64,000 nucleotides of DNA from Oceanimonas smirnovii ATCC BAA-899 (GTDB lineage Bacteria > Pseudomonadota > Gammaproteobacteria > Enterobacterales > Aeromonadaceae): positions 1 to 64,000 of the forward strand of contig NZ_KB908458.1 of the NCBI RefSeq assembly GCF_000381965.1, in the 5' to 3' direction. The position numbers and the translations under genes were made by a program. The first letter of the stretch is position 1. Each line of letters starts with the position of its first letter. Of this stretch, positions 51,304 to 58,279 are shown piece by piece. A model generated the notes under the pieces. The model searched no databases, had not been told where the DNA came from, and worked only from the letters and a program-made list of their open reading frames with translations.

Positions 51304-52119
51304 ATGATCACCAAGACACTCAGTCAGGATACAAAGATAAAAAACAGTAAACATTTACTGCGCGAGCTGGCCGAACAGCGAGGCCTGGCAGGTTTGCTGC
51401 ACGGGGACTCACCCAACAGTTTTGGGGATCGTTACCGAATCCGGCAGCAGCTGGAAGACGCCGCCCGCCAGAAGAATCTGGAAACCATTATGCGCCTGGC
51501 TCATGAACAATGCGGCAGCGACGTAGGGGGCGAGCCGGATCCTGACTGGCTGAGTCATTTCATGAGTCTTGCAGAAAATATTCGTCACAGCGCCATGCAG
51601 CAGTTCTGGGCCAGCATACTGACCCGTGAAATTGCTCAGCCCGGCCGTTGTTCAGTACAGGCGCTCACCTGCCTGCGGCGTATGACCCAAAAAGACGCCC
51701 TGCTGCTGCAAAAGGCCAGTGCGCTTGGCTGCCATTTTGGCGATGACAATTTACGGCTGTTTCTGGGTTACCGGCAAAAAGGACTCTGGCAGGGGCTGCG
51801 CCAGCAAAAGCTGACTCCGGGCAAATATCGCCTGCCCTTTGCCGGCCTGATGCAGCTGTTTGAACTGGGATTATTACACCAGACCGAGCTGGAGTCGGGC
51901 GAGCTGACCACTGCCAACCCGCTCACCCTGATACTGGGAGACAGACGGCTCAAACTCAGCCCACGGCGCAAAGGCGTACGGCTGCTGTATTACCGTTTTA
52001 CCGGCATTGGCAACGAGCTGGCCGCGCTGATGACAGAAGTCACACCGGCAGACTATATAACGGATGTGCTGGAGTTGCTGGCCCCGCTGGGCCAGCTGGA
52101 GCAGGACAAAGGCGCTTAA
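51304..52119 (+). CDS. TIGR03899-like conserved protein of unknown function
   Basis: Soluble protein of 271 aa. It resembles the family named TIGR03899 that I recall next to ppa in Vibrio and Shewanella; there is no known activity. Visible features are a charged helical N terminus, the block HFMSLAENIRHSAMQQFWASILTREIAQPG (about 85-115) that is shared with DUF2806-type proteins, and a C-terminal LILGDRRLKLSPRRKGVRLLYYRFTGIGNELA. No signal peptide or membrane helix. The ATG at 51304 is used, although a TTG at 51295 is in frame and no strong ribosome site is seen for either. It overlaps the convergent cysG by 4 bp. Confidence 0.7.
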   Translation: MITKTLSQDTKIKNSKHLLRELAEQRGLAGLLHGDSPNSFGDRYRIRQQLEDAARQKNLETIMRLAHEQCGSDVGGEPDPDWLSHFMSLAENIRHSAMQQFWASILTREIAQPGRCSVQALTCLRRMTQKDALLLQKASALGCHFGDDNLRLFLGYRQKGLWQGLRQQKLTPGKYRLPFAGLMQLFELGLLHQTELESGELTTANPLTLILGDRRLKLSPRRKGVRLLYYRFTGIGNELAALMTEVTPADYITDVLELLAPLGQLEQDKGA

Positions 52120-53513
52120 ACAGCGCGATCGAGCAGGGTTTCAACCTCGGCCTGAGACTGAAACCAGCCCAGCTTGCCGGCCAGTGAGGTGACTGAGCCA
52201 ATTACCATCAGCGCCGGACTTTCCACTTGAGTTGCCAGCTCGCCAAGCTCATTCAGAGTGCCACGCACCAGCTTTTGTTGCTGAGTGGTGCCCCGCTCAA
52301 TCAGCGCCACCGGCGTGGCACCGCTTAAGCCATGCTCCATCAATCGCTGCTGAATATGCGCCGAGCGCATCAATCCCATGTAAATCACCAGGGTCTGGCG
52401 GCTGTTGGCCAGACTGGCCCAGTCCGGCTCTTCACCATCCTTCTTGCAGTGACCGGTAATAAATACCGCACTCTGAGCATGATCCCTGTGGGTCAGCGGA
52501 ATGCCGGCATAGGCGGTAGCACCGGCGGCAGCGGTAATGCCGGGCACCACCTGATAGCGAATGCCCGCTTCCACCAGGGTCTCCAGCTCTTCCGCGCCGC
52601 GGCCGAACATAAAGGGATCGCCGCCCTTGAGACGCACCACCCGCTTGCCTTCAAGCGCATGATCCACCAGCAGCTGATTGATTTGATCCTGGGGCACGCT
52701 GTGATTACCCGCCTTTTTGCCTACCGGGATCAATTCCGCTTCAGGACGGATCAGCGCCATGATCTCATCCGACACCAGTTGATCGTACAGCACCACATCG
52801 GCCTTCTGCAGCTCGTTCAGCGCCTTGACCGTCAACAGTTCCGGGTCGCCCGGGCCGGCCCCCACCAGGATCACTTCGCCTTGTGACGGCAGCTGCGCTT
52901 CCTGCTGCAGCCAGCGCTCTGCCGCCGCCAGGTTACCGTGTTTCAGGTAAGCATTGAGGGTGCCGTCATCCTGAGCCCGGGCCCAGAAACGACGACGCTC
53001 TTCGCTGCTGCCAAAACTGTTTTTCACCCGCTCCCGCAACCGGCCGGCCACCTCTGCCAGTGCGCCCCAGTGTGACGGCAGTAATGCATCAATACGAGCC
53101 CGCAGCAGGCGGGCCAGCCAGGGTGCCTTGCCACCGGTGCTGAGCGCCAGCTGCAGCGGAAAGCGCTCCACCACGGACGGAAAGATCACCGCCGAGCGCT
53201 TGCTGTCATCGGCCTTGTTGACCAGAATGCCGCGCTGATTGGCCAGCTGATAGACGCGGGCGTTCACTTCCTTGCTGCTGGTGGCGGCCACCACCAGAAA
53301 ATGATCCTGCAGATGCGTTTCGTCAAACTCGGCCTGCCGCCACTCAAACTCCGGCAGCAGTTGTTCCAGCTCGGGGCAGAGTTCGGGGGCCACCACGGTC
53401 AGCCTGGCTCCGCGAGACAGCAACAGCCGGGCCTTGCGGGCGGCCACGGCACCGCCGCCTACCACCAGGCAGGGACGTTGTTCAATGCTGATAAAAAGAG
53501 GCAGGTGTTCCAT
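52116..53513 (-). CDS. cysG: siroheme synthase (trifunctional CysG)
   Basis: Protein of 465 aa (E. coli 457) making siroheme, the CysI cofactor, from uroporphyrinogen III. The N-terminal precorrin-2 dehydrogenase/ferrochelatase half has LVVGGGAVAARKARLLL. The C-terminal uroporphyrinogen III methyltransferase half has VILVGAGPGDPELLTVKAL and VRLKGGDPFMFGRGAEE. The start is ATG 53511-53513. A 24-bp motif also found before cysJ lies 74 bp upstream, and a TATACT box is at 53570-53575. Confidence 0.96.
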   Translation of the reverse strand: MEHLPLFISIEQRPCLVVGGGAVAARKARLLLSRGARLTVVAPELCPELEQLLPEFEWRQAEFDETHLQDHFLVVAATSSKEVNARVYQLANQRGILVNKADDSKRSAVIFPSVVERFPLQLALSTGGKAPWLARLLRARIDALLPSHWGALAEVAGRLRERVKNSFGSSEERRRFWARAQDDGTLNAYLKHGNLAAAERWLQQEAQLPSQGEVILVGAGPGDPELLTVKALNELQKADVVLYDQLVSDEIMALIRPEAELIPVGKKAGNHSVPQDQINQLLVDHALEGKRVVRLKGGDPFMFGRGAEELETLVEAGIRYQVVPGITAAAGATAYAGIPLTHRDHAQSAVFITGHCKKDGEEPDWASLANSRQTLVIYMGLMRSAHIQQRLMEHGLSGATPVALIERGTTQQQKLVRGTLNELGELATQVESPALMVIGSVTSLAGKLGWFQSQAEVETLLDRAV

Positions 53514-53586
53514 GGCCGGCTCCGACAATAACAATAGACAGGCTAACTATAAACCGGCAGGCATATATCAGTATAATAATAAAAAA

Positions 53587-53610
53587 TGATTTTTTATGCT
53601 TTTAAGGAAT
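53587..53610 (-). promoter_or_regulatory. shared cys-gene upstream motif, cysG copy (CysB site candidate)
   Basis: A 24-bp block starting TGATTTTTTATGC on the plus strand and ending AAGGAAT. It matches 58208-58231 at 21 of 24 positions and, like that copy, ends exactly 74 bp from the start codon of its gene. CysB, the LysR-type activator of cys genes, is the obvious candidate; its sites are A/T-rich and weakly conserved, so the match to a consensus is not decisive. Confidence 0.6.
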
Positions 53611-53648
53611 CAATAGGGCTTGTGATTCCATTCGAAGGCAGGAATTTT

Positions 53649-53684
53649 GGCCTGTTTCACAGGCCCCGCCAACTAAAGTGGCGG
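53649..53684. repeat. two adjacent hairpins in the cysG-cysH spacer
   Basis: GGCCTG-TTTCA-CAGGCC (53649-53665), immediately followed by CCGCCA-ACTAAAG-TGGCGG (53666-53684). They lie downstream of cysH on the minus strand. There is no T-run. They could end or stabilise the cysJIH transcript. Confidence 0.45.
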
Positions 53685-53744
53685 CTACAAAAGTGCAGAG
53701 AAGATGGTGCAGTCAGGCAGGCAAAACCGAGACTTCCAAGGGGA

Positions 53745-53847
53745 GGACAAGGAGAGCGGCTTCACGACCGATCAAATGCCATGGATGGCATTTGCCGAGC
53801 GCCCCACGGAGGGGCTTGAAGCGTGTCGTGAAGTCGACTCCTTGTTC
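53745..53847 (-). repeat. dispersed hairpin repeat, copy R7
   Basis: About 103 bp. The core matches R1 (AAATGCCA-TGGA-TGGCATTT, then GCCGAGCGCC), but the second small stem is GCCCC/GGGGC and the arms are different (ACAAGGAG.CGGCTTCACGAC and its inverse). Both arm partners have changed together. It fills the spacer next to the cysH stop. Confidence 0.85.
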
Positions 53848-53878
53848 GACCTGCTCTGGGTTCCGCAGGTTCAGGGGG

Positions 53879-54646
53879 TCAAATACCGCTGCCGTCGGAC
53901 TCGGGTATTTCGTGCAGGCCGCATTCGCGCTTGAGGCCGTTGAAGCGGGTGTCCGCTTCGCTCATGCCCGGCTCCCACTTGGCGGTGGTGTGCACATCGC
54001 CCACCGACACATAACCCTGTTCCCACAACGGGTGATACGGCAGCTCGTGGTCTTTCAGGTAGTAGTGCACGTCCTTGTTGCTCCAGTCGATAATCGGCAG
54101 GAACTTGAACAGGCCGTTCTGAATACCCAGCACCTCAAGCCCTTCACGGGTATCGGACTGACTGCGGCGCAGGCCCGAGAACCAGACGCCGGCGTTCAGC
54201 TCACGCAGCGCCCGTTGCATCGGCTCCACCTTGTTCAGGTGGTTGTAGCGGCTGATGCCTTCCACCCCCTGCTCCCACAGCTTGCCGTGGCGGGCTTCCT
54301 GCCAGGCGGCGGACTCGGCGGCCCGGTACACCTTGAGGTTGAGCCCCAGGCGCTCGGTCAGCTCGTCAATAAAGCGGTAGGTTTCCGGAAACAGGTAGCC
54401 GGTATCGGTAAGGATCACCGGAATATCAGCCCTGACTTGCGTCACCAGATGCAGCATCACCGCCGCCTGAATACCAAAACTGGAGGAGAGCACTGGCTCT
54501 CCCGGCAGATGGTCCAGCGCCCAGCGCACCCGCTCGGATGCGCTCAGTGCCGCCAGCTCTTTATTGAGCGGCGCCAGGGCCTCGACCTGCTGCTGTCGGG
54601 ACAGGCCGGTCAGCTCATCAAGAGCGGGCAACACATTAGACTGCAT
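53879..54646 (-). CDS. cysH: phosphoadenosine phosphosulfate reductase
   Basis: PAPS reductase of 255 aa (E. coli 244) that reduces PAPS to sulfite with thioredoxin. [15 protein letters not shown] and [12 protein letters not shown] are substrate-binding; the single catalytic Cys is in the C-terminal ECGLHE. The second Cys pair that marks Fe-S APS reductases is missing, so PAPS is the expected substrate. The ATG (54644-54646) overlaps cysI by 11 bp. Third gene of cysJIH. Confidence 0.95.
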
Positions 54647-56327
54647 AAAAATCCCTCGCGGAGTCAACCACAGGCGCAATGATGCCGGCACGGATCACGA
54701 AGTCGCCAAAACCTTCACCGGCCTCACGCTCGGCGGCCCAGCGGGCAACCAGACCGTCGATCTCTTCCAGGATCTGGCGATCGGTGATGTTTTCCTTATA
54801 CATGCGCGGAATGCGGGTGCCTTCCCGGTTGCCGCCCAGGTGCAGGTTGTAGCGACCGGGTGCCTTGCCCACCAGACCGATTTCCGCCAGCATGGCGCGG
54901 CCACAGCCGTTGGGGCAGCCGGTCACACGGAAGATGATGCTGTCATCATTCACGCCGTGCTTGGCCAGCACGCCTTCGATCTCGGTGACGAACTCCGGCA
55001 GGAAGCGCTCAGCTTCCGCCATGGCCAGCGGACAGGTGGGCAGCGCCACACAAGCCATGGAGTTCTGCCGCTGTTCAGACACGCTGTCGTCCAGCAGGCC
55101 GTATTGACGGGCCAGCGCTTCAATTTCCGCCTTCTGCTCGGTGGGTACACCGGCAATGATCAGATTCTGGTTGGCGGTCAGGCGGAAGTCGCCCTGATGC
55201 ACTTTGGCAATCTCGGCCATGCCGGTTTTCAGCGGCTTGCCCGGATAGTCCAGAATGCGGCCGTTTTCGATAAACAGGGTCAGGTGGTGCTTGCCGTCTA
55301 TACCTTCCACCCAGCCAAAGCGGTCGCCGCGGCTGGTGAATTCGTAAGGGCGTACCGGCTCGAATTTAATGCCGGCGCGCTTTTCCACTTCTTCCTTGAA
55401 CGCATCCACGCCTACCCGCTCCAGGGTATATTTGGTCTTGGCGTTCTTGCGCTCAGAGCGGTTGCCCCAGTCACGCTGAGTGGTGACCACAGCAGCGGCC
55501 ACCTCCAGGGTGTGCTCCAGCGGAATATAACCGAAGTCGCTGGCCTTGCGCGGATAGGTATTGGTGTCGCCGTGAGTCATGGCCAGGCCACCGCCCACCA
55601 GCACGTTAAAGCCCACCAGCTTGCCGTTATCGGCAATGGCCACAAAGTTCAGATCGTTGGCGTGCACATCAATGTCGTTATGCGGCGGAATGACGACCGT
55701 GGTCTTGAACTTGCGCGGCAGATAGGTGGAGCCCAGAATCGGCTCTTCGTCGGTGGTTTCCAGCCGCTCGCCGTCCAGCCAGATCTCGGCATAGGCCCGG
55801 GTCTTGGGCAGCAGATGCTCGGAAATCTTCTTGGCCCACTCGTAGGCTTCCTGATGCAGCTCAGACTCTACCGGGTTGCTGGTGCACAGCACGTTACGGT
55901 TCACGTCACCGGCGGTGGCGATGGAGTCGATGCCGGTCTTGTTCAGGGTCTGGTGCATCAGCTTGATGTCACGCTTGAGCACGCCGTGAAACTGAAAGGT
56001 CTGGCGGGTGGTCAGGCGAATGCTGCCATACATGGTGTGATCAGCGGCAAACTTGTCAATGGTCAGCCACTGCTCGGGCCTAATAATGCCGCCGGGCAGA
56101 CGGGCGCGCAGCATCACATTGTGCAGCGGCTCCAGCTTTTGTGCGGTACGCTCGTTGCGAATGTCGCGGTCGTCCTGCTGATACATGCCGTGAAAGCGGA
56201 TCAGCATAAAGTTATCGCCGTTAAAGCCACCGGTGAGCGGATCCTGCAGATCCTGCGTTATGGTGCCACGCAGAAAATTACTCTCGCGCTTGAGGCGTTC
56301 GTTGTCAGACAGTTTTTGCTCGCTCAT
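54636..56327 (-). CDS. cysI: sulfite reductase (NADPH) hemoprotein beta-subunit
   Basis: Siroheme/4Fe-4S subunit of 563 aa (E. coli 570) that reduces sulfite to sulfide. The cluster-ligand cysteines are in [13 protein letters not shown] and [16 protein letters not shown]; the N-terminal [19 protein letters not shown] is typical. The start is placed at ATG 56325-56327 ([10 protein letters not shown]), 1 bp after the cysJ stop; an ATG four codons earlier (56339) overlaps cysJ and is also possible. Confidence 0.96.
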
Positions 56328-56328
56328 C

Positions 56329-58134
56329 TTAATAAACATCCCTTTGGTAACGCTTGGCGCTGCGCAGCGCATCCACATAATCTTCGGCCTGTTCGCGGGT
56401 CTTGCCGCCGTGCTCAGCCACCAGTTCGATCAGGGCTTCATGCACGTCTTTAGCCATTTTGTTGGCATCGCCACACACATAGAAATGCGCGCCCTGCTCC
56501 AGCCAGGCATAGACCTCGGCCCCCTCTTGCTTCAGCTTGTGCTGCACATAGACTTTCTCGGCCTGATCCCGGCTGAAGGCCAGGGAGATTTTGTCCAGCA
56601 GGCCGGATTTGACGTAGCGCTGCCACTCCAGCTGATACAGGAAGTCCTGAGTGAAGTGCGGGTTGCCGAAGAACAGCCAGTTTTTGCCCTCGGCACCTCT
56701 GTCATCCCGCTCCTGCATAAAGGCGCGGAACGGCGCTATGCCGGTGCCCGGGCCCACCATGATCACCGGGGTGCTGTCGTCGGCGGGCAGGCGGAAGTTG
56801 TCGTTGTGCTCCACGAACACCCGCACCTTGCCGCCCTCTTCCAGCCGGTCGGCCAGGTAGGAAGAGGCACCACCGGCACGGGGCTGTCCGTCGTGGTCAA
56901 AACGTACCACCCCCACGGTCAGGTGCACTTCCTCGTCTACTTCCGCCTGGGAGGAGGCAATGGAATAGAGCCGCGGCGTCAGTTTACGCAGGGCCCCCAG
57001 CAGTTGCTCGGCAGTCAGTGCCACCGGCTGCCCGGCGATAATGTCTTGAATCTGATGACTGGCACAGTATTCGCGCAGGGCAGCCTTGTCATCCACCAGC
57101 GCCTTAAGCTTGTCGCTGCCGGACAGTTCGGCATAGGCCTGTACAAAGCTGGCATACCCCTGAGTCAGCTCATAGTGGTTGATCAGCGCCTCATGCAGGG
57201 ACAGAGTCTTATCGTCCACCTTGACTTCAGTATCGCCGGACAGCTCCACCAGTTGCAGCAGGCTGTCTACCAGCGCCTCGTCGTTGCTGAACCACACGCC
57301 AAGCGCATCACCGGGCTGGTAAGTCAGGCCCGAGTCTTCCAGGGAGATCTCAATGTGGCGCACATCCCGGTCAGAATCCCGGCCGGTAATTTTCTGATTG
57401 GTGGACAGCTCGGCCACAAAGGGATTTTTCTTGCTGTAGAGGCTGGCGACCCCCTGAGTGGCGGGAGTGCCCGGGATCACTTCATTGGCGGCCTCACCGG
57501 CCAGGGCATCCTTGAGCAGTTCAAAGGCGGACTGGCTCCACTCGGCGGCGGGGCCTTCATAGTCCACATCACAGTCAAGACGGGCCAGCAGCGGCTTGGC
57601 ACCGGCCTTGCTGAGATATTCATCAAAGTCCTTGCCGGTCTGGCAGAAGAATTCATAAGAAGAATCACCCAGGCCAATCACGCCGTAGCTCAGGCCATCC
57701 AGCTTGCCGGCCTTGCCGGACTTCAGCTGCTTGTGGAATTCAATGGCATCATCGGGCGCTTCGCCCTCACCGTTGGTGCTGGCCACAATGATCACATGGG
57801 TTTCTTTCTTGAGCTGCTTGATTTTGTAGTCGGCAACATTATACAGCTCGGCAGCAATGCCGCTGGCATCAGCCTGGGCCTTGAGGGTCTCGGCCACCCC
57901 TTTGGCATTGCCGGTTTGTGAGGCGTAGAGAATCGTCAGCTTGCCTGCGGGCTGAGCCGCCACAGCGGCAGTGGGAGCAGCCGCAATGGCCTGGCCGTGC
58001 TGGCTGATGCCGTAAAAATAACCGCTGACCCAGGCCAGCTGAGTGGCGTTGAGCTCGGCCGCCACCTGAGTGAGCTTGTGCACCTGTTGTTCGTTCAGCG
58101 GGCTGGCGGCCGCCGCAAGTTCTTTTAAAAGCAT
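56329..58134 (-). CDS. cysJ: sulfite reductase (NADPH) flavoprotein alpha-subunit
   Basis: FMN/FAD reductase of 601 aa (E. coli 599) that feeds electrons to CysI. N-terminal flavodoxin domain ([18 protein letters not shown], residues ~65-200), FAD-binding region ([20 protein letters not shown]) and NADPH site ([16 protein letters not shown]), ending RYQRDVY. The ATG (58132-58134) has GGAAGG upstream. A TATAAA box lies at 58180-58185 and the shared cys motif at 58208-58231. Confidence 0.97.
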
Positions 58135-58207
58135 GACATTGCCTTCCACTTTTCCAGAGTGGATACAGCTTAAGCCATATTTATACTTAACAATAAAGAA
58201 TAAAGGG

Positions 58208-58231
58208 TGATTTTTTATGCATTAAAAGAAT
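58208..58231 (-). promoter_or_regulatory. shared cys-gene upstream motif, cysJ copy (CysB site candidate)
   Basis: 24-bp block starting TGATTTTTTATGC on the plus strand and ending AAAAGAAT, 74 bp from the cysJ start codon. See the matching copy at 53587-53610, which has identical spacing to cysG. Confidence 0.6.
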
Positions 58232-58250: not shown

Positions 58251-58279
58251 TAAAAAAGGGCTTCCTTGCGGAAGCCCTT
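58251..58279 (-). terminator. Rho-independent terminator of rpoBC
   Basis: On the minus strand, AAGGGCTTCC, loop GCAA, GGAAGCCCTT, then a T-run (58251-58257). It lies 25 bp after the rpoC stop, separating it from cysJ. Confidence 0.92.

Follow-up and report, generated by a model that had tools for sequence, protein, structure and literature searches.

We found that the siroheme synthase gene cysG and the sulfite reductase gene cysJ, both contained in a 64-kb stretch of DNA (the window) from an Oceanimonas-like host whose whole genome comprises 3.28 Mb, are preceded by the same conserved element, and that the likeness of the two copies exceeds chance. Judged from its sequence, the element is with good confidence predicted to be, at both genes, an activation site for the LysR-type regulator CysB. 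Among named loci, the closest CysG proteins are those of Oceanimonas sp. CHS3-5, O. marisflavi and O. baumannii, with which that of the window shares 88-89% identity. The genes follow one another on the minus strand in the order rpoC, cysJ, cysI, cysH and cysG, with a terminator-like hairpin between rpoC and cysJ. The open reading frame (ORF) of cysG (52116..53513) encodes a siroheme synthase of 465 residues that matched NCBIfam NF007922 (siroheme synthase CysG) with 600.5 bits, the cut-off being 400, and that of cysJ (56329..58134), the flavoprotein subunit of sulfite reductase (601 residues), matched TIGR01931 (cysJ) with 846.4 bits (cut-off 668).

A conserved element upstream of cysG and cysJ

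The preliminary description of this DNA had pointed out a 24-mer shared by the two upstream regions, and re-reading the sequence gave the same values. On the plus strand, positions 53587-53610 (before cysG) read TGATTTTTTATGCTTTTAAGGAAT and positions 58208-58231 (before cysJ) read TGATTTTTTATGCATTAAAAGAAT; the two are identical at 21 of 24 positions, and each starts 74 base pairs (bp) from the ATG of its minus-strand gene (53513 for cysG and 58134 for cysJ, start codons that we assigned by inspecting the translated ORFs and, by eye, a Shine-Dalgarno-like sequence). The match between the two spacings is partly luck: measured in relatives, the ATAAAAA stretch of the element stands 82-84 bp before the start codon of either gene. 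What hardly varies is its distance to a -10-like hexamer, and probably this distance, rather than the 74 bp, is the constant feature. A degenerate pattern derived from both 24-mers (up to 3 mismatches allowed) was found only at these two places in the 64 kb and at none in 100 shuffles, a weak check given that the pattern came from the two sites themselves.

Conservation was followed in named genomes, where 529 loci encoding CysG were found and the best 80 taken, with flanks of up to 10 kb. Fifteen of these 80, from Oceanimonas, Oceanisphaera, Zobellella and two metagenome-assembled genomes (MAGs), formed a clade subset. All 15 carried the same block upstream of cysG, as did the window, and it was likewise present upstream of cysJ in the window and in all 13 clade loci that reach the cysJ start. 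Profiles based on sequence only were then trained on 14 cysJ sites (R1) or on 16 cysG sites (R2), each including one site of the window, and run against the whole genome. R1 recovered cysJ (E 7.2e-13) and cysG (E 1.4e-5), the next separate place having an E of 0.105, and R2 recovered cysG (5.5e-9) and cysJ (0.0021), along with a reverse-strand reading of the cysG site (0.0056), its next separate place standing at 2.89. The resemblance is therefore more than chance, because the cysJ profile retrieves cysG as the sole other significant site of the genome, and the reverse. Moreover, with matrices trained without any Oceanimonas row, both window sites outscored all 2000 dinucleotide shuffles.

Coincidence, or a recent copying of one promoter onto the other, is very improbable in the light of these data. 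Such an origin would suit the fact that the window's pair is the most similar among 14 genomes (21/24, the other 13 two-site genomes giving 15-19/24), but both sites are kept at orthologous places in Oceanimonas, Oceanisphaera and Zobellella, the sequences flanking them differ between cysG and cysJ, and the reciprocal profile matches, together with the two-site pattern across the genus genomes, make it unlikely. This pattern was obtained with a joint profile (R3) of 30 sites (16 cysG and 14 cysJ), which was applied to 23 genomes from the GTDB genus; for each of them, the 150 best candidates of a first look were scored. In this set, which includes several training species (of 7 compared group g1 genomes other than our own, 4 are identical to a training row over the 100 bp before cysJ), 22 of the 23 genomes had two strong sites (E ≤2.4e-7) and no third, and G033 had one. 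The two sites of a pair shared a contig in 21 genomes, with 4.4-5.0 kb between them, and fell on two contigs in G001, the cysJ site being confirmed by coordinates in 8 genomes and the cysG site being taken from the spacing, except in our own genome. Every other place in the 23 genomes had an E of at least 0.0139, barring two opposite-strand readings of strong sites.

A degenerate 17-base core gave 3 exact matches in the 3.28-Mb genome. The third (C2:81948) lies within an ORF that by eye resembles an ATP-binding SMC-type protein, and was treated as a chance occurrence. As for the next-best profile matches (C1:225637, the place with E 0.105, C2:196649 and C1:194717), inspection by eye revealed no sulfur gene among the surrounding ORFs.

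Operator anatomy and promoter geometry

The 30 sites from both genes were aligned over 52 columns in gene orientation. Invariant in all of them were A6, T7, A19, T20, A21-A25, T27, T33, A36, T38, T40 and T41. The 24-mer of the preliminary description corresponds to columns 6-29, and thus starts exactly at a LysR-type box. Two symmetry axes were found, at columns identical in cysG and cysJ: a dyad at column 13 and an AT-rich inverted repeat at column 28. The dyad, written as ATNC-N7-GNAT or ATNNC-N5-GNNAT (patterns selected after inspecting the sites), was centred on column 13 in 27 of the 30 sites, versus 0 of 1110 other offsets. T7 and A19, present in 30/30 sites, follow the T-N11-A rule of LysR-type operators (PMC3382589) and stand within an interrupted palindrome upstream of the proposed promoter. 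In the window, the box reads ATTC-N7-GCAT (T-N11-A) at both genes and occupies 53596..53610 before cysG and 58217..58231 before cysJ, on the minus strand. The AT-rich inverted repeat, probably the activation half of each operator, spans 53579..53597 at cysG (ATAAAAAAT-C-ATTTTTTAT, minus strand) and, assigned from the symmetry axis and the column conservation, 58200..58218 at cysJ (minus strand), where it is imperfect in the window.

A -10-like hexamer lies 50-51 bp from the box centre in all 16 cysG upstream regions (TATAGT) and in all 14 cysJ upstream regions (TAAGCT in 13, TATGCT in 1), the hexamers having been chosen by us. Those of the window, TATAGT at 53546..53551 and TAAGCT at 58167..58172 (both on the minus strand), are proposed as parts of the cysG and cysJIH promoters, respectively. 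With a transcription start some 12 bp past the first base of the hexamer, the box would be centred near -64 and the operator as a whole near -52. According to PMC11329422, the centres of CysB activation sites lie 50-60 bp before the transcription start, a range that the presumed operator centre would fit, and CysB is proposed to bind like BenM, with a core ATAC-N7-GTAT. The box of this clade, ATNC-N7-GNAT, is in line with that BenM-like core. By eye, the -35 regions of both proposed promoters are poor.

It is possible, although we advance it only tentatively, that the clade operator reveals the real DNA code of CysB, namely one BenM-like core ATNC-N7-GNAT at about -64, the adjoining AT-rich inverted repeat and, in cysJ, a second ATTC located 30 bp (three turns) past the first. 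Each tetramer would then read two pairs of short half-sites, in keeping with what the crystal structure of CysB suggested, and not half-sites of 19 bp. The main interest of these strongly conserved sites is that they may expose what CysB reads.

CysB as the predicted regulator

A CysB orthologue is encoded at C11:71139-72107. It shows 73% identity to E. coli CysB and matched NF009326 with 598.2 bits (cut-off 436), and in its DNA-binding domain 57 of 66 residues are as in E. coli, the stretch TSQPGISKQVRMLEDELG being unchanged. This is the single close CysB of the genome. CysB is the regulator that best accounts for both elements, since a CysB equivalog is present, the LysR-type box would be rightly placed and the geometry is that of the E. 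coli cysDNC promoter; the sequence thus favours the earlier suggestion of a shared activator site, most likely for CysB.

The geometry was compared by anchoring promoters on TATAGT. Among the 57 of the 80 cysG upstream regions that pass a TATAG[T/C] filter (23 were dropped, 12 from Aeromonas, Tolumonas and unclassified Aeromonadaceae and 11 from more distant loci, and the window stands outside the 80), the cysG promoters of Aeromonadaceae, Vibrionaceae and Prodigiosinella aligned with the E. coli cysD promoter within one base, Prodigiosinella and Oceanimonas being one off. The arrangement ATTCC-N53-TATAGT is common to E. coli cysD and to the cysG genes of Oceanisphaera litoralis and Oceanisphaera pacifica (L020, L023) and of a MAG (L024), and Prodigiosinella cysG has ATTCC-N54-TATAGT. 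The E. coli cysDNC operon is listed as CysB-activated in PMC3773388. With respect to the Salmonella and E. coli CysB sites of cysJIH, cysK and cysP (Kredich and co-workers, as related in PMC11329422), the clade element is alike in its operator centre, some 50 bp upstream of the deduced start, in its predicted LysR-type regulator, in serving sulfur genes and in the near-identical DNA-binding domain of CysB. It differs in that the consensus of the enteric sites has been described as very weak, whereas the Oceanimonas-clade element is strongly conserved and easily recognised, and the E. coli cysJ promoter did not align by eye with that of the clade cysJ.

Alternatively, the sites at cysJ and cysG alone might be read by a different LysR-type regulator, such as a Cbl-like protein or one specific to siroheme or sulfite, while CysB acts elsewhere. 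The genome does hold 23 further LysR-type matches to CysB, and at high stringency each genus genome has two sites only, spaced like cysJ and cysG; we nevertheless regard this alternative as unlikely, given that E. coli cysD, a CysB target according to PMC3773388, has the same geometry and the left box. Two further findings speak against it. The element is present at the cysP promoter of a congener (G036), which R3, trained on cysJ and cysG only, matched with an E of 0.0367 (CysP identified by NF008106, 552.3 bits), and a close CysB was found in all 8 sampled g1 genomes, each of them carrying cysJ, while G002, the one complete genome with no CysJ or CysD match, also had no CysB match at E 1e-90.

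Several results weigh against assigning the element to CysB. The preliminary description had looked to other cys genes for further copies of the motif, and this part of the proposal found partial support, in the congener's cysP and, weakly, in our own cysK. In the genome-wide profile searches (best 150 candidates per genome in the R3 search), no cys promoter of our own genome besides those of cysJ and cysG was significant. Separate scans of our own promoters gave P values of 0.006 for cysK, 0.031 for the cysD copy on C11, 0.084 for cysP and 0.458 for the second cysD (four tests, uncorrected). Twelve weaker congener sites, out of 51 weaker rows that include some opposite-strand duplicates, comprised one before cysP, 5 near a gene resembling those of M6 metallopeptidases, 2 before a gene for an amino-acid-type binding protein and 4 others, one protein of each kind having been family-scanned. 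On seven E. coli CysB targets the clade matrix performed weakly (P 0.061 to 0.332; 0.88 for the control gene cysG), and 3 of the 30 aligned sites lack the box pattern. Finally, a sigma-70 consensus scan found neither the proposed cysG promoter nor the proposed cysJ promoter; it returned instead one promoter-like site inside the cysG operator (53605-53576, with 0.3 expected by chance) and, at cysJ, one promoter-like site on the plus strand.

The promoter-like pair within the cysG operator would also fit the element being a mere AT-rich promoter feature (an UP element, curved DNA or the promoter itself) that aids the polymerase with no regulator involved, as would the purely A/T composition of its best-conserved part (ATAAAAA and the TTTATT stretch). 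We consider this quite improbable, since the symmetric box keeps C and G at fixed positions in 27/30 sites and the element is specific, genome-wide, for two functionally linked genes. Returning to CysB, either its other sites are far weaker, as the weak consensus in the literature would have it, or the element has an extra requirement particular to the cysJ and cysG promoters.

The best matches of the clade matrix in E. coli cysP, cysD and cysK (P 0.061, 0.062 and 0.332, none significant by itself) all start at TTATTCC, and our own cysP has, by eye, ATATTCC at the position matching that of the congener. With the whole 42-column matrix, only 1-2 of 62 control promoters outscored each of six E. 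coli targets; 19 outscored the seventh, cysK, and 59 the control gene cysG. The 62 promoters were not A+T-matched and the result is not relied on. A perfect dyad, ATAAC-N5-GTTAT, occurs at our own cysK (L175) and at the C11 copy of cysD (L134) and is, by eye, largely retained in congeners; this dyad may represent another version of the LysR-type box described above. Our genome has cysD in two copies (L134, C11:112484; L142, C1:181399), as have G001, G014 and G023, and upstream of the C1 copy the sequence has, by eye, a coding appearance and lacks the element shared by cysJ and cysG. Among the weaker congener loci, L279, L280, L281, L283 and L287 have an AT-rich, box-like palindrome near a gene whose product, 38-62% identical to the L283 protein, weakly matches M6 metallopeptidases, and in L279, L283 and L287 a gene for a sigma-54-type activator is close by.

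N-acetylserine is the established effector of enteric CysB. In the model that we propose, cysJIH and the downstream cysG would have separate promoters, each with a poor -35 and both with the same operator, formed by the LysR-type box (ATNC-N7-GNAT, T-N11-A) at about -64 and the AT-rich inverted repeat reaching to about -40. Under sulfur shortage, CysB loaded with N-acetylserine would occupy this operator and recruit RNA polymerase, so that the siroheme made by CysG would be produced alongside the sulfite reductase (CysJI) that needs it. What the data establish are the sequences, their conservation and geometry, the order of the genes and the presence of a CysB; that CysB is what binds, in which sense it regulates, where transcription begins and which effector acts are inferences of the model.

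With regard to CysB itself, six Aeromonas genomes (group g4, assigned by DNA match; G004, G008, G016, G019, G022 and G025) had a best match to E. coli CysB of only 43-50% identity, compared with 72-75% in other genera, and a seventh (G012) had no CysB match at E 1e-90. The DNA-binding domain differs in the CysB-like protein of G016, the only Aeromonas protein compared, and the box core before cysG also differs in named Aeromonas.

Gene order and neighbouring features

The preliminary description was right that cysG of E. coli lies outside the cys operons: it follows nirBDC. Its suggestion that a tie between siroheme supply and sulfur status might be special to this host did not hold, because cysG stands directly before cysD in 54 of the 80 related loci (the best 80 of 529), mostly with cysN and cysC beyond, in Aeromonas, Tolumonas, Vibrionaceae and Prodigiosinella. 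A sulfur-linked cysG is therefore common among relatives, and the link is an instance of an already known arrangement, not new in kind. Prodigiosinella has the genes in the order cysJIH-cysG-cysDNC, whereas in the Oceanimonas clade cysG is apart from cysDNC and lies 117-698 bp behind cysH (14 loci), retaining a promoter akin to those of the relatives. The cysG-cysDNC operon of Aeromonas, Vibrionaceae and Prodigiosinella and the E. coli cysDNC operon resemble the clade cysG in their TATAGT-anchored promoters and in the CysG product or the operon served, and the clade cysG promoter would share common descent with that of the cysG-cysDNC operon of many relatives. The E. coli nirBDC-cysG arrangement is similar in coupling siroheme synthase to a sirohaem enzyme; it differs in that the enzyme is nitrite reductase and in that no such box precedes cysG (P 0.88). 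In four Aeromonas loci (L034, L035, L040 and L064) nirB is just upstream and cysDN just downstream of cysG, which joins the nitrite and sulfate uses of siroheme.

It is likely that this host makes siroheme together with the enzyme needing it. The proposed separate cysG promoter suggests that siroheme supply is wired to the sulfur regulator independently of the cysDNC operon. A literature search, mostly of non-subscription papers, found no site linking cysG to CysB, which is no proof of absence.

The remaining genes of the region and the hairpin are all on the minus strand. The terminator-like hairpin 3' of rpoC (58256..58279) sets rpoC apart from cysJIH. The cysI gene, for the haemoprotein subunit of sulfite reductase, was taken as the listed ORF (54636..56378), whose relatives sit where E. 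coli CysI matches the related loci, and cysH, for 3'-phosphoadenosine 5'-phosphosulfate reductase, occupies 53879..54691 (NF002537, 318.4 bits), the start codons of both being provisional. A scan of the cysH-cysG gap found no terminator-like structure, and read-through from cysJIH may therefore contribute to cysG expression. The same gap contains a repeated element (53742-53850) that recurs in at least 39 other genomic places with 81-97% identity (best 40 of 73 candidates).

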